Source of the DNA: Halorubrum sp. 2020YC2
GTDB lineage: Archaea; Halobacteriota; Halobacteria; Halobacteriales; Haloferacaceae
NCBI RefSeq assembly: GCF_018623055.1
Contig: NZ_CP076019.1
Coordinates: forward strand, 930,001 to 994,000
Reading direction: 5' to 3'
Length of the DNA: 64,000 bases
The notes below the pieces were generated by a model, which was not told the DNA's origin, searched no databases, and saw only the letters and a program-made list of their open reading frames with translations. Within the stretch, counting starts at the first letter, position 1. Each line of letters opens with the position of its first letter. Shown one piece after another: positions 17,608 through 62,497 of this stretch. Made by a program: the position numbers and the translations under genes.

Positions 17608-17861
17608 GCGGTGGCGCGTGCCGACGAGCGCCCGAAGGGCGCGAGTCGCACGCGCGAGGGAGTCGGTGGGCCGGAGCGAAGCGAAGGTCCACCGACGAGG
17701 CTGGGGAGGCGTGAGGCTGCGGCTGCGGTGCGGGGGCGGGACTCAAAGGGGCAGTCGGCTCCGGGAAGACGGCCGATGTAAGCACCGCAGCGAACGGAGT
17801 GAGTGAGGAGCGCAGCGAGGCCCTCGACCGGAGCCGACTGGGGCTTTGGCAGTGCTCGCGG
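17608..17861 (+). repeat. Structured intergenic repeat, copy A
   Basis: Element-sense plus strand, between the crotonase and hpt genes. Block order: GCGGTGGCGCGTGC; GAGGGAGTCGG; GGCTGGGGAGGCGTGAGG (17699-17716); GGGACTCAAAGGGGCAG (17738-17754); AAGCACCGCAG; CTGGGGCTTTGG (17838-17849). A 12-bp helix pairs AGTCGGCTCCGG (17753-17764) with CCGGAGCCGACT (17828-17839). A second helix pairs GTCGGTGG with CCACCGAC. One mini-hairpin, GCGCCC-GAA-GGGCGC, is at 17628-17642. This copy lacks the TTATAAA box at its 5' end and the tail is degenerate. Confidence 0.8.
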
Positions 17862-18005: not shown

Positions 18006-18575
18006 ATGGACCAGTTGCGGCAGTCGCTCCTCGACGCGCCGATCATCGAGAAAGGCGAGTACCAGTACTTCGTCCACCCGATCAGCGACGGCGTCCCGAT
18101 GCTCGAACCGGAGCTGCTCCGGGAGATAGTCATCCGGATCATCCGGAAGGCGGAGCTGGAGAACGTCGACAAGATCGTCACCCCCGCCGCGATGGGGATC
18201 CACATCTCGACCGCGCTCTCGTTGATGACCGACATCCCCCTCGTGGTCATCCGCAAGCGCCAGTACGGCCTCGACGGCGAGGTCCCGCTGTTCCAGGAGA
18301 CGGGCTACTCCGAGTCGGAGATGTACATCAACGACGTCGAGCAGGGCGACCGCGTGCTCGTCTTAGACGACGTGCTCTCGACGGGCGGCACGATGAAGGC
18401 CATCCTCGACGCGCTCACCGACGAGGTCGGCGCGGAGGTCGTCGACGTCGTCGCCGTGATCAAGAAGGCGGGCCCCAACGAGCTCGACGACACCGACTAC
18501 AACGTGAAGACGCTGATCAACGTCACCGTCGAGGACGGCGAGGTCGTGATCGTCGACGCCCAAGGCGACGAGTAA
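18006..18575 (+). CDS. hpt: Hypoxanthine/guanine phosphoribosyltransferase
   Basis: A 189-residue cytoplasmic PRTase that salvages purine bases with PRPP. The PRPP-binding loop [14 protein letters not shown] is clear, preceded by the flexible-loop region [22 protein letters not shown]. The N-terminal [19 protein letters not shown] is the pattern of the archaeal HGPRTase family, related to bacterial adenine and xanthine PRTases, so base specificity is not certain. It lies between repeat copies A (plus) and B (minus), whose 3' tails both point at it. Confidence 0.85.
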
Positions 18576-18625: not shown

Positions 18626-19047
18626 TTTATAAGTAGCCAACAACGGACCGGCGGTGAACACCTCCAAAGCCCCAGTCGCGAGGCGGGCGCACGCTCGCTG
18701 TCGCCCGAAAATCGGAGATTTTCGGGATGACGAGAGAGCTTCGCTCTCTCGAACCACGCTCCTCGTCACTCACTCCGTTCGTTCCTGCGGTGCTTGCGTC
18801 GTCATCAGAACGCGAAGCGTTCTGACTGGCTCACGAGAGCGAAGCTCTCGTGAACGCCTGCGCCCGCCTCGCGACTGCCCCTTTGAGTCCCGCCCCGCAC
18901 AGCGACTGCCCCTCACACCTCCCCAGCCTCGTCGGCCGGTCTCCGCGTCGCTCCGACCGGCCGACTCCCTCGCACGCGCTCCTCGCGGCCGCCGGGGGCG
19001 GCCACTCGGAGGCGCGCGCCGACCGCACCGCTACGTTCGTTTATAAA
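18626..19047 (-). repeat. Structured intergenic repeat, copy B
   Basis: Minus-strand orientation between hpt and the PfpI gene. The 5' TTTATAAA box is at 19040-19047 and the 3' TTATAA at 18627-18632. The P3 helix has perfect 18-nt arms (18674-18691 with 18859-18876), flanked by the CCAAAGCCCC/GGGGCAG-side blocks. A second helix pairs GTCGGCCGGTC with GACCGGCCGAC, a covaried version of copy A. Four perfect mini-hairpins lie in the P3 loop: 18704-18726, 18732-18750, 18806-18824 and 18832-18852, each with a 3-nt loop. Confidence 0.85.
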
Positions 19048-19117: not shown

Positions 19118-19795
19118 ATGACTGACGCGTTATTCGTCGTGAGCGAGGAAGGCTACTGGGCCGAGGAGTGTATCGAGCCGCTGACGACGCTCGAATCGGA
19201 GGGCGTCGACGTGACGATCGCGACCCCGTCGGGGTCGCCGCCGGTCGTCGACGAGCGCTCGCTGGACCCGGAGGCCGCGGGCGGCGAGGAGCGCGTCGCG
19301 GAGCTCCGCGAGGTCGACGAGGAACACCCCGGACTCAACGACCCCGAGCCGGTCGCGACCGTCGACGCCGCCGACTACGACGCCGTCGTCTTCCCCGGCG
19401 GTCACGGCACCGCGTGGGACGTGAATCAGGACCGCCACGCCCGCCAGCTGCTCCTCGACTCGGTCGCCGGCGAGGAGGGCGTCGCGCTGGTCGTCTGCCA
19501 CGCGGTCGGCATCCTCGCGTTCACGAACGAGGCCGACGGGACGCCGCTCGTCGAGGGGCGCTCTATCACGGGCTTCCCGAACGAGTGGGAAGAAGACATC
19601 GTCGACGAGAACGACCTGATGCCCGACGGGCGGAAGCTCCCGTACTGGGTCGAAGACGAGGTCGTCCTCGCCGGCGCCGACTTCGACGCCGAACTCGACG
19701 CCGACACCAGCGTCACCGTCGACGGCGACCTGATCACCGCGCGCGGCCCGGGCTCCTCCGTGGCCGCGGCCGCGACGCTGCTCGACGAACTGTAA
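19118..19795 (+). CDS. DJ-1/PfpI family (type 1 glutamine amidotransferase-like) protein
   Basis: A 225-residue cytoplasmic protein. The nucleophile elbow VVCHAVGIL holds the family Cys, followed by His; an upstream FPGGHGTAWD is the glycine-rich oxyanion strand and EEGYWAEECIEPL holds the conserved Glu near the N terminus. It matches the Hsp31/YhbO-like group that includes glyoxalase III and protein deglycase activities. Which reaction applies is not decided. ATG 19118 is set by the TATA box. Its last codons are the first unit of a 15-bp tandem repeat. Confidence 0.82.
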   Translation: MTDALFVVSEEGYWAEECIEPLTTLESEGVDVTIATPSGSPPVVDERSLDPEAAGGEERVAELREVDEEHPGLNDPEPVATVDAADYDAVVFPGGHGTAWDVNQDRHARQLLLDSVAGEEGVALVVCHAVGILAFTNEADGTPLVEGRSITGFPNEWEEDIVDENDLMPDGRKLPYWVEDEVVLAGADFDAELDADTSVTVDGDLITARGPGSSVAAAATLLDEL

Positions 19796-19870
19796 CTCGA
19801 CGAATCGCCACTCGACGAATCGCCACTCGACGAATCGCCACTCGACGAATCGCCACTCGACGGGCCGCGA
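19781..19870 (+). repeat. 15-bp tandem repeat after the PfpI gene
   Basis: Four perfect copies of CTCGACGAATCGCCA (19796-19855), flanked by degenerate copies on both sides. The first is CTCGACGAACTGTAA, the last five codons of the gene including its stop. The array therefore seems to have grown from the 3' end of the coding sequence. Confidence 0.85.
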
Positions 19871-19885
19871 CTCGGAGCGGCCCGG

Positions 19886-25008: not shown

Positions 25009-25180
25009 GGGGCATTTGTGACCCGCGGCTCGCACATCGACCGCGTCCGGATTCAGAGACGTTCTCGTCCGAAGGGGTTGATCGCTGAACGGTGGTTCTT
25101 GCTTGACGACGGGAGTGGGTGTTACAGATCGGCGGCTGCGATGTGGTGTTTAAATGGCCGTGAGCGACAGCGACGAGGGA

Positions 25181-25477
25181 TTATAAATGGAGAGCGCGGT
25201 GGCGCGCCTGCGAGCGGCCGCCACCGGCGGCCGCGAGCCAGCCCGCGAGGGACGCCGCGAACGCCCGGAGGGCGTGAGCGGCGAGGCTGGGGAGGTGTGA
25301 GGTGCGGGGCGGTGCGGGGCACGGGACTCAAAGGGGCAGTCGCGAGGGCGAAGCACGCCGCAGCAAGCACCGCAAGGAGCGAGTGAAACGAGCGACTGAG
25401 GAGCGCAGCAAGGCGCGCGAGCCGTCGCGACTGGGGCTTTGGAAGCCCCCACCGCACAAGCGTGATCAATTATAAAC
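25181..25477 (+). repeat. Structured intergenic repeat, copy C
   Basis: Plus-orientation element between the convergent MFS and aminotransferase genes. TTATAAAT box at 25181-25188; GGCTGGGGAGGTGTGAGG block; GGGACTCAAAGGGGCAG at 25323-25339. The P3 arms are AGTCGCGA (25338-25345) and TCGCGACT (25425-25432), followed by CTGGGGCTTTGGAAG. Mini-hairpins are at 25214-25234 (ACC loop) and ACGCCC-GGA-GGGCGT at 25261-25275. A TTATAAAC box ends the tail, and a second TTATAAG lies 30 bp further. The rest of the 650-bp gap holds nothing recognisable. Confidence 0.8.
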
Positions 25478-25661
25478 AGCGGACAGAAACACCGCGCTTC
25501 GGCTTATAAGTGACCACGCCATCACACTAAGCGACGTACACCCGCCATCGCTCGTCGCTGGATCCGTATCGCCCCTATCCGGGGGAGGATATCTCACCGG
25601 TCGAGAACTCTGACGAAATCGTCCCGGCCAGAGATCGGTTCCGCCTCTGATCAGCCCTCTA

Positions 25662-27005: not shown

Positions 27006-28616
27006 ATGTCCGGCCCCGCCCGCGAATCGGCATCGGACCAGAACCTCCAGGCCGTCCTCGACCGGATGGCCGACGGGTTCTTCGCCCTCGACGCGGACTG
27101 GACGGTCGCGTACGCGAACGAGGAGGGGCGCCGGATCCTCCGGTCCGCGATGAGCGACGACGCGGTCGGTCCCGGCGAGTCGGTCGAGGGGCGCAACCTG
27201 TGGGACTCGATCCCCGGGTCCACCGAGACGGAGTTCCACGACCGGTACCACCGCGCCATGTCGACCCAGGAGCCGGTCTCGTTCGACTCCTACTACGAGC
27301 CGCTCGACACCTGGTTCGAGGCGCGGGCGTTCCCCTCCGAGAGCGGGCTCTCCGTCTACCTGCGAGACGTCACCGAGCAGCGCGAACTGGAGCGCCGGCA
27401 GCGGGAGAGCCTCCACGCCATCCAGCGGCTCTACGCGGTCTCCTCGGACCACGAGCGCACGTTCGAGGAGAAGGTGGAGGCAATCTTGACGCTCGGCTGC
27501 GAGTACCTCGACGTGCCCAACGGGTTTCTCACGCGCATCGGGGACGGGACCCAACACGTCGAGGTGTCCCACGCCGAACACCCCCTGTTACAGCCCGGAG
27601 AGACCTGTCCACTCGACGAGGCGTACTGTAAGCGGACCATCGAGCGCGACAGCCTGTTGACGATCGTCAACGCGTCCGAGGAGGGGCGGACCGGCGACCC
27701 CGCGTACGAGACGTTCGGGCTGGAGACGTACATCGGCGGGAGGGTCGAGGTCGACGGCGACCGGTACGGGACGCTGTGTTTCGCCGCCACGACGCCCCGC
27801 GGCGAGCCGTTTACCGACACTCAGCGGACGTTCGTCGAACTGCTGACGCGGTGGGTGAGCTACGAGCTGGAACGGCAGCGCGCGGCCGACCGGCTCGAAC
27901 GCGAGCGCGACCGGCTAGAGGAGTTCGCCAGCGTCGTGAGCCACGACCTCCGGAACCCCCTCACGGCCGCGCGGGGGCGGATGGAGCTCCTCGCGGAGGA
28001 GTGCGACAGCGAGCACGTCGAGCCGGTCGAGCGGTCGCTCTCGCGCATGGAGACGCTCATCGAGGACCTGCTCACGCTGGCGCGCGAGGGGGACGCCGTC
28101 GACGACCCCGAGCCGGTCGACCTCGTCGCGCTCGCCGCCGACGCCTGGGAGACGACCGACAAGGGGGGCGGAACGCTCCGGACGGCCGTCGACGAGCTCG
28201 GGGTCTTGGCGGACGAGGCGCGGCTGCGGCAGCTCTTAGAGAACCTGTTCCGCAACAGCGTGGAACACGGTTCCACGAGCAGCGAGGGACGGAGTCCCTC
28301 GGGCAACCGGGCTCCGCCCGGTGACAGCCGGACGGAGTCCGGCGGCGCCGTCGAGCACGGCGGCGGGGAGGTGACGGTCACCGTCGGCGCGCTCGCGGAC
28401 AGCGACGGGTTCTACGTGGCCGACGACGGACGGGGGATCCCCGAAGACGAGCGCGAGCAGGTGTTCGAGACCGGGTACACCACGACGACCGACGGGACGG
28501 GGTTCGGGCTGAACATCGTTGCGGAGATCGCCGACGCGCACGGCTGGTCGGTTCGGGTCGTCGAGTCCGAAACGGGCGGCGCGCGGTTCGAGGTCAGCGG
28601 CGTCGAACCGGCCTGA
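27006..28616 (+). CDS. Sensor histidine kinase (PAS-GAF-HisKA-HATPase)
   Basis: A 536-residue cytoplasmic sensor kinase without membrane helices. A PAS domain (about 10-125) with LDADWTVAYANE is followed by a GAF domain (about 145-285). HisKA carries the phospho-acceptor His313 in VVSHDLRNPL, and the ATPase domain has the N box LLENLFRNSVEHG and G boxes DDGRGIPEDER and GFGLNI. There is no receiver domain, so it signals to a separate partner. In the ATP-lid region between residues about 425 and 447, three perfect mini-hairpins are inserted in frame (28284-28342), expanding a variable SVEHG...AVEHG segment. Confidence 0.9.
   Translation: MSGPARESASDQNLQAVLDRMADGFFALDADWTVAYANEEGRRILRSAMSDDAVGPGESVEGRNLWDSIPGSTETEFHDRYHRAMSTQEPVSFDSYYEPLDTWFEARAFPSESGLSVYLRDVTEQRELERRQRESLHAIQRLYAVSSDHERTFEEKVEAILTLGCEYLDVPNGFLTRIGDGTQHVEVSHAEHPLLQPGETCPLDEAYCKRTIERDSLLTIVNASEEGRTGDPAYETFGLETYIGGRVEVDGDRYGTLCFAATTPRGEPFTDTQRTFVELLTRWVSYELERQRAADRLERERDRLEEFASVVSHDLRNPLTAARGRMELLAEECDSEHVEPVERSLSRMETLIEDLLTLAREGDAVDDPEPVDLVALAADAWETTDKGGGTLRTAVDELGVLADEARLRQLLENLFRNSVEHGSTSSEGRSPSGNRAPPGDSRTESGGAVEHGGGEVTVTVGALADSDGFYVADDGRGIPEDEREQVFETGYTTTTDGTGFGLNIVAEIADAHGWSVRVVESETGGARFEVSGVEPA
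28284..28342 (+). repeat. Three mini-hairpins inside the histidine kinase gene
   Basis: GAGGGACGGAGTCCCTC (28284-28300), CCGGGCTCCGCCCGG (28307-28321) and CCGGACGGAGTCCGG (28328-28342). All are perfect hairpins with 3-nt loops. The first is identical to the one in repeat copy D at 32055-32071. They lie in frame within a variable linker of the ATPase domain. Confidence 0.85.
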
Positions 28617-31831: not shown

Positions 31832-32236
31832 TTATAAAAGAGGGCGGTGGCGTCGCCGGCGGCTCTGCCGCCGGCTACAAACGGCGCGTAGCGCCGGCGA
31901 CAGCACGCGCGAGGGACGCGGCGAACGCGGGCGGCGAAGCCGCGAGCCGTGAGCCGCGAGGCTGGGGAGGCGTGAGGTGCTGTGCGGAGCGGTGCGCGGT
32001 GGGACTCAAACGGGCAGTCGCCGGCGGCTGTCACCGGGCGAAGCCCGGTTGCCAGAGGGACGGAGTCCCTCGCTGCCCGTGGCGCGTAGCGCCACGCTGC
32101 CGCGAGGACGAAGCACGGCGCAGCAGGCCGCGCGAGTCCTCGCGGCTGGGGCTTTGGAGGTGTTCACCGCCGAGACGTAGTCAACGATTTATATCCGAGC
32201 GGCTGGGGCTCTGGAGGTCTTCGCCGCTGATCCGCA
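31832..32236 (+). repeat. Structured intergenic repeat, copy D (two tail units)
   Basis: Plus orientation between the convergent cysK and CoA-binding genes. TTATAAA at 31832-31838, GGCTGGGGAGGCGTGAGG, GGGACTCAAACGGGCAG; P3-type arms GCCGCGAGGAC (32099-32109) and GTCCTCGCGGC (32136-32146). Mini-hairpins: 31855-31875, 31883-31895, 31931-31943, 32034-32048, 32055-32071 and 32079-32095. The tail CTGGGGCTTTGG (32146) recurs as CTGGGGCTCTGG at 32203, 57 bp later. The rest of the gap to 32333 is A+T-rich and featureless. Confidence 0.8.
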
Positions 32237-47164: not shown

Positions 47165-47276
47165 CGGCACCCGGATGCGACCGACGCGTTCGACGCCGTT
47201 CCGAATCCTGCGCGTGACGCGTCGGAACCGGTGGGCGAGGCGACAACAGGTCTCAGTAATTCAAAACGCTCGGTAG

Positions 47277-62046: not shown

Positions 62047-62497
62047 GTTTATAAGTGAACCTCTACCTCGTGGCTATCTTTTGATAACTCGTTGCTGGCG
62101 GATTTGCGTTGGGCACCTCTGAAGCCCCGGTCGCTCACTTATAAATAGCTGACAGCGGATCGGCGGCGAACACTTCCAAAACCCCAGTCGCTCCCTTTTA
62201 AATCGTTGCTGGCGGATCACCGGAGACCTCCTCCAAAGCCCCAGCCGCGAGGACAGCGCACACTCGTTGCGCTCCTCGCTCGTTCGCTTCGCTCCCTCGC
62301 TGCGGTGCTTACGTCGTCTGCGCTGTCCTCGCGGCTGCCCCTTTGAGTCCCGCCCCGCCCAGCACAGCACCGCAGCCTCTCACCTCCCCAGCCTCGTCGG
62401 CCGGCCTCCGCTTCGCTCCGGCCGCCCGACTCCCTCGCGCGTGCTGCTCGGCCGCAGGGCGGCCTCGCAGGCACGCGCCACCGCCTCATTTATAAAT
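62047..62497 (-). repeat. Structured intergenic repeat, copy E (three tail units)
   Basis: Minus orientation between convergent genes. TTTATAAA box at 62489-62496. The P3 helix has perfect 18-nt arms (62243-62260 with 62319-62336). Tail units begin at 62233, 62176 and 62119 on the plus-strand coordinate (rc CTGGGGCTTTGG, CTGGGGTTTTGG, CCGGGGCTTCAG), exactly 57 bp apart. Each is followed by an A+T-rich box (TTTAAAAG, TTATAAG). This is the copy with the longest tail. Confidence 0.88.

Follow-up and report, generated by a model that had tools for sequence, protein, structure and literature searches.

An order-wide family of structured non-coding elements is present in the haloarchaea, and it is undescribed in the open papers searched. 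Its copies lie between genes, are mostly intact, share a covarying fold that is more stable in the sense strand, and have been gained and lost between species. We put at roughly 60% the probability that these are non-coding, non-autonomous repeats with a conserved fold in one strand, which are mobile and act as RNA. The family numbers ∼140 copies in one genome and occurs in about half of the sampled haloarchaeal genomes. Transcription of the copies would place the family with the most numerous structured RNA families known from an archaeon, and in hosts that can be cultured; otherwise, the family would be an archaeal counterpart of the BOX and REP repeats, one whose covariation, exchange of cassettes, and inversion of hairpins can be traced site by site across 53 species.

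Copies, architecture, and genomic placement

The window is a stretch of 64,000 bp (G000:C1:930001-994000) from a Halorubrum genome of 3.06 Mb. It contains five copies of the element, listed here with two parts of copy E.

17608..17861, + strand: copy A; P1 from 17613, P2, GAGGCTGGGGAGG, core 17738-17754, P3, closing CTGGGGCTTTGG at 17838-17849
18626..19047, - strand: copy B; TATA-like box at ∼19048-19038, P1 from 19020, P2, core 18891-18875, P3 with extra hairpin cassettes, CTGGGGCTTTGG ending at ∼18664, tail TATA at 18632-18626
25111..25545, + strand: copy C, of the long-ended type; left end CGGGAGTGGGTGTTACAGATCGG (25110-25132), TTTAAAT and TTATAAA boxes, P1 from 25202, core 25323-25339, P3 to ∼25442, right region to ∼25545
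31832..32236, + strand: copy D; TATA-like box, P1 and P2 with cassettes, core 32001-32017 (one mismatch), P3 with cassettes, two tail units (32145, 32202)
62047..62497, - strand: copy E; TATA-like box at 62497-62490, P1 from 62479, core 62351-62335, P3, CTGGGGCTTTGG to 62233, three 57-bp tail units
62233..62351, - strand: P3 of copy E; CUCAAAG / GGG / CAG...stem / GACGUAAGCACCGCAG hairpin GAGGAGCGCAACGAG / stem...CUG / GGG / CUUUGG
62119..62245, - strand: tail array of copy E; period 57 bp (CTGGGGCTTTGG ... TATTTATAARYGAGCG)

The coordinates, strands, and block order of the five copies, as set out in an earlier note on this DNA, were all confirmed, as were the TTATAAA-type box in four of them (B, C, D, and E; it is absent from A) and the lack of a protein frame common to the five. 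Convergent genes flank copies C, D, and E, and A and B are in tandem, downstream of a gene. The list of blocks was in the right order and omitted the P3 hairpin closed by CTCAAAG/CTTTGG and the 57-bp tail repeats. In the element sense, the full order is a TATA-like box; P1, opening with GCGGTGGCGCGTGCC; P2; GAGGCTGGGGAGGYGTGAGG; the core GGGACTCAAAGGGGCAG; P3, a long hairpin with AAGCACCGCAG and GAGCGCAGCGAG inside; CTGGGGCTTTGG; and the tail. P3, exemplified by that of copy E, is the unit conserved across the order. The tail consists of one to six units of 57 bp (in some cases, 54 or 51 bp), each of which repeats CTGGGGCTTTGG, usually with a TATTTATAA box. These TATA-bearing units may grow and shrink in number through tandem duplication. 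Near-exact tandem units were seen at L022 (G000:C1:524297; 57 bp), L009 (54 bp), and L013 (51 bp), which suggests recent local duplication.

The repeats described as a family of five are real, and their extent is far greater, at ∼140 or more copies in the genome. The 17-mer core GGGACTCAAAGGGGCAG occurs 140 times with at most one mismatch, while the reversed control does not occur at all. An apparent strand bias of these matches along the chromosome was discounted as a product of incomplete sampling of the matches. One hundred copies from this genome were extracted with their surrounding stretches for placement analysis, and none overlapped a predicted gene (0/37 for copies in other genera). 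Chance resemblance or coding constraint, the danger that the earlier note had named, was rejected because the reversed core has no matches and the copies are intergenic. Placement, based on a simple codon-usage gene finder that misplaces a few neighbors (for example, the gene left of copy D), was convergent for 38 copies, tandem for 47 (28 and 19), divergent for 14, and unresolved for one. Copies are thus depleted between divergent genes (14/99 copies versus 16/54 gene pairs in the window), and convergent gene pairs are their commonest location (38/99). Nearly all of the 100 extracted copies are intact, with a median pairwise identity among copies of 77%. Scans with the P1 motif and with the tail motif each found almost the same sites as the core, and fragments are therefore rare.

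A TATA-like box heads 53 of 86 copies, compared with 3 and 0 in control windows. It begins ∼19 nt ahead of P1, and the normal archaeal box-to-start spacing would place the start of transcription ∼10 nt inside P1; for this reason, we do not call the box the promoter of an RNA. Boxes of a similar kind are also present in the 57-bp tail units. The claim of a conserved archaeal promoter driving an RNA is consequently unsupported in the form given, even though the box itself is real.

A conserved fold in the sense strand

P1, P2, core/P3, and the tail are helices with strong covariation. On 43 canonical copies, from this genome and other Halorubrum genomes, the structure gave 95% paired cells, and 23 pairs had changed on both sides. 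The doubly changed cells numbered 178, compared with 48.4 (standard deviation, 5.2) after shuffling (0/500) and with 4 to 37 in controls in which the structure was slid along the alignment, and the covariation score was 0.304 versus 0.104 in shuffles. By both kinds of control, the elements show covariation such as a structured non-coding RNA family would have, and the compensatory helices proposed from the five copies were borne out. Pairing between the core and the closing motif, as CUCAAAG/CUUUGG or CUCGAAG/CUUCGG, leaves a GGG/GGG internal loop. P2 occurs in two registers, and its score is lower because the alignment mixes them.

Unguided folding of copy E gave a z score of -6.0, with a minimum free energy structure that recovered P1, P2, P3a, and P3b; its antisense strand folds more weakly by 29 kcal/mol. 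The sense strand was the more stable one in 86 of 86 copies, by a mean of 25 kcal/mol. Among the outer 13 pairs of P3 in 199 distinct copies, G·U numbered ∼101 and A·C ∼22, counts to which no P value is attached since related copies are non-independent; in P1, the counts were 18 and 0. Because the two kinds would be equal under strand-symmetric mutation, the sense-strand fold seems to be under selection. Tandem G·A pairs adjoin the inner helix of P1 in 42 of the 43 copies. These data are best explained by selection acting on the fold of the sense strand, in the simplest case as RNA, and RNA-level action of the fold is likely.

Extra hairpin cassettes are inserted into P1, P2, and P3. The same cassettes are found elsewhere in haloarchaea, including inside transposase-like genes; judged by the translated flanks, the cassette-bearing genes at L302 and L304 look like those of an IS6-type transposase. 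Within the window, a run of hairpin cassettes at 28251-28330 is 81% complementary to the cassettes of copy D (32025-32104) and lies inside an open reading frame (27006-28616) that looks like a histidine kinase gene. A separate array of about five tandem 15-bp units of CGCCACTCGACGAAT occupies 19776-19880, straight after the gene at 19118-19795.

Relatives, gain and loss, and probable mobility

A search of haloarchaeal genomes with a covariance model, which the earlier note had proposed, matched 53/53 Halorubrum genomes and 78/118 genomes of the order, with E values outside Halorubrum down to 4e-28. The multicopy nature of the family had been recognized, and its order-wide relatives had been overlooked. 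No sampled genome outside Halorubrum contains the exact core of that genus; the core there is GGACTGAAAGGGGC, present in 122/235 genomes at up to ∼70 per genome (at most 1 for the control). A genus-specific family was rejected on the basis of the covariance model matches and this variant core. Copies outside Halorubrum close with GGGGGCTTTC, and their closing helix covaries between GAAAG/CUUUC and GGAAG/CUUCC. Holders include Halorussus, Halobaculum, Salinigranum, and plasmids of Haloarcula and Natrinema. Many copies in other genera consist of P3 only, and some are arranged as head-to-head pairs; the P3-only copies of Halorussus and Natrinema lie close behind a gene on the same strand. One family, f17 (L333, L335, L338, L340, and L345), keeps the P3 frame and fills it with another inner module, GCGACCCCTATCC...GGATATGTCGC, which gives the impression that the inner modules of P3 can be exchanged.

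Orthologous loci with and without the element, another comparison that had been proposed, were both found. The copy B site, which separates a phosphoribosyltransferase-like gene (18006-18575) from the gene that follows it, is occupied in most of the Halorubrum species compared. In the 14 species with readable P3 stems at this site, the stem sequences differ and nearly all are well paired, and the closing helix covaries between CTCAAAG/CTTTGG and CTCGAAG/CTTCGG. At the same site, P3 has been precisely lost in G235. Syntenic comparison showed site C to be empty in G280, G004, and G260 and site D to be empty in G280 and G004; site A is empty in G250, and a site near window position 47174 is occupied in G260 and empty in the genome of the window. 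Since occupied and empty sites differ between species, copies have been gained and lost, site by site. Divergence between the species is too great for the junctions to be clean enough for reading a target duplication. At the copy B site, the closely related species G281 (L230) and G004 (L236) carry the inner arm of P3 in opposite orientations, within an outer stem that has not changed.

A longer left end, CGGGAGTGAGTATCGCAGATCGG...TTTAAATA...TTATAAATG, is mirrored on the right in ∼30 of the 282 copies from all loci. Within the genome of the window, the left end CGGGAGTG... is present at 6 sites, and most copies lack it and with it the terminal inverted repeats (TIRs) of a MITE. One copy (at L107) extends fully to GGCTCTGTTGAAA-type terminal repeats and has imperfect 8-bp flanks, AATGAGTT/AATTAGGT, identical at 6 of 8 positions. 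Target-site duplication of the MITE kind was not found in ordinary copies, whose head and tail boxes resemble each other no more within one copy than across copies, and the TATA boxes were rejected as target-site duplications because they are not copy specific. TIR-like GGCTCTGTTGAAAYCCT ends occur at 13 sites in the genome of the window, and no transposase was seen in the single pair of such ends examined for open reading frames. Three stretches with GGCTCTGTTGAAATCCT-type inverted ends (G000:C1:1974168-1976633, 1848035-1848464, and 2590119-2591334; L289 to L301) are possibly cargo-bearing non-autonomous transposons; the first holds membrane-protein-like genes and no evident transposase.

Two copies in the genome of the window, the only near-identical pair, are 98% identical over 547 bp with diverged outer ends. 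They look like products of gene conversion, and plain fresh transposition is doubted because of the diverged ends. The long-ended copies are likely to be mobile non-autonomously, and we infer the same of the remaining ones. The mobile element envisaged at the outset is supported by gain and loss and by TIRs in a minority of copies; a target duplication is missing from most.

Interpretation and comparison with known repeats

The choice originally posed, between an RNA gene and a mobile element, need not be made, since elements that move and are also selected for a sense-strand fold would suit the data. The family is probably RNA acting and non-autonomously mobile. Each copy specifies the P1 and P2 hairpins and then the long P3 in one strand, with P3 closed by CUCAAAG/CUUUGG in Halorubrum or UGAAAG/CUUUC in other genera and interrupted by the GGG/GGG internal loop. 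Spread would be rare, via transposition of long-ended copies with TIRs; copies would be homogenized by gene conversion and otherwise inherited. A host protein would most likely bind the folded RNA, acting in the host or securing the element's own copying. Counterpoints are that the box spacing does not suit an RNA whose transcription begins at the base of P1, that the only near-identical pair looks converted and not freshly transposed, that copy-specific target duplications were not found, that no autonomous partner element was found, and that template switching at palindromes can also yield compensatory changes. More tentatively, the mobile repeats may carry an undescribed functional archaeal RNA class, with a fixed outer frame (core, GGG/GGG loop, and closing helix) and swappable inner modules, in tens to >100 copies per genome across many of the haloarchaea, acting in trans via a dedicated RNA-binding protein or spreading like SINEs.

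The hairpins could instead serve as single-stranded DNA, in transposase recognition or replication, with no functional RNA. Among hairpins with arms of ≥6 bp, 3-nt loops were found in 170/203, compared with 28/144 in control DNA, and 114 of the 170 triloops are GNA or its complement, TNC; GNA triloops form very stable DNA mini-hairpins. The inverted head-to-head copies of other genera and the TIRs of long-ended copies also favor such a DNA-level foldback. The excess of G·U over A·C and the diverse paired stems at one site in 14 species imply selection after insertion, which argues against it, although a strand-specific role of single-stranded DNA would also give part of this signal; on balance, we regard the foldback as unlikely. 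Neutral relics, that is, palindromes that have no selected function and stay perfect through template switching and gene conversion, would account for the inversion or precise deletion of P3 inner arms in some species, for cassettes that come and go, and for the pair homogenized over 547 bp. Template switching, however, would not prefer G·U to A·C, few copies are fragmentary despite ∼140 copies at a median identity of 77%, and single-stranded motifs (the core, GAGGCTGGGGAGG, and AAGCACCGCAG) are conserved order-wide, so that this origin is very improbable. A role as cis-acting 3' elements (terminators, insulators, or mRNA stabilizers between genes) would suit the depletion between divergent genes, the frequent convergent placement, and the P3-only copies behind same-strand genes. 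We consider this role improbable: orientation is mixed, promoter avoidance alone accounts for the divergent depletion, and the conserved block contains no U-run terminator.

The earlier note knew of no named haloarchaeal family with such a plan, and we likewise found none: there was no match among 4227 Rfam families and no description in the open papers on haloarchaeal repeats and small RNAs, subscription papers and preprints lying outside the search. Viral or phage carriage was set aside because no phage record matches the element; viral contigs gave 14 short exact matches. By analogy, the family may work like BOX- or REP-type repeats. BOX elements of Streptococcus pneumoniae are modular, with stem-loops and an internal module of variable number, and they resemble the present family in having about a hundred intergenic copies, stable stem-loops, and a variably repeated module. 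The comparison covers the architecture of BOX elements with their boxA, boxB, and boxC modules; BOX elements belong to another domain of life, whereas the family described here is order-wide and its repeated 57-bp module forms a tail apart from the main fold. REP/BIME, ERIC, and Correia-type repeats are likewise high-copy intergenic palindromes without coding capacity, but the haloarchaeal fold is larger and multihelical, with conserved single-stranded motifs and covariation across genera. REP repeats have a RAYT-type partner, and none was identified for the haloarchaeal element. Rickettsia palindromic elements are lodged inside protein-coding genes, and only the hairpin cassettes, which are also found inside such genes, are like them, not the whole element.

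MITEs are known in haloarchaea, for example in Haloquadratum walsbyi (PMC3119063). They are similarly short and non-coding, and the present family shares TIRs in a minority of copies and variable occupancy; it differs in that most copies have no TIR or target duplication and in its conserved fold and order-wide spread. The class I intergenic repeats of HF2, a Halorubrum virus, are 56 to 58 bp long and bear an AT box (PMC8707807), resembling the 57-bp tail unit in length; they were rejected as relatives because their beta and gamma motifs (TCTTTAAGTC and CGTCTNNTAGAG) differ from the tail-unit consensus. Halococcus 5S rRNA carries a 108-nt expansion segment, reported to have probably moved horizontally (PMC7812874). 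The segment is close to P3 in size and might conceivably be related to it.
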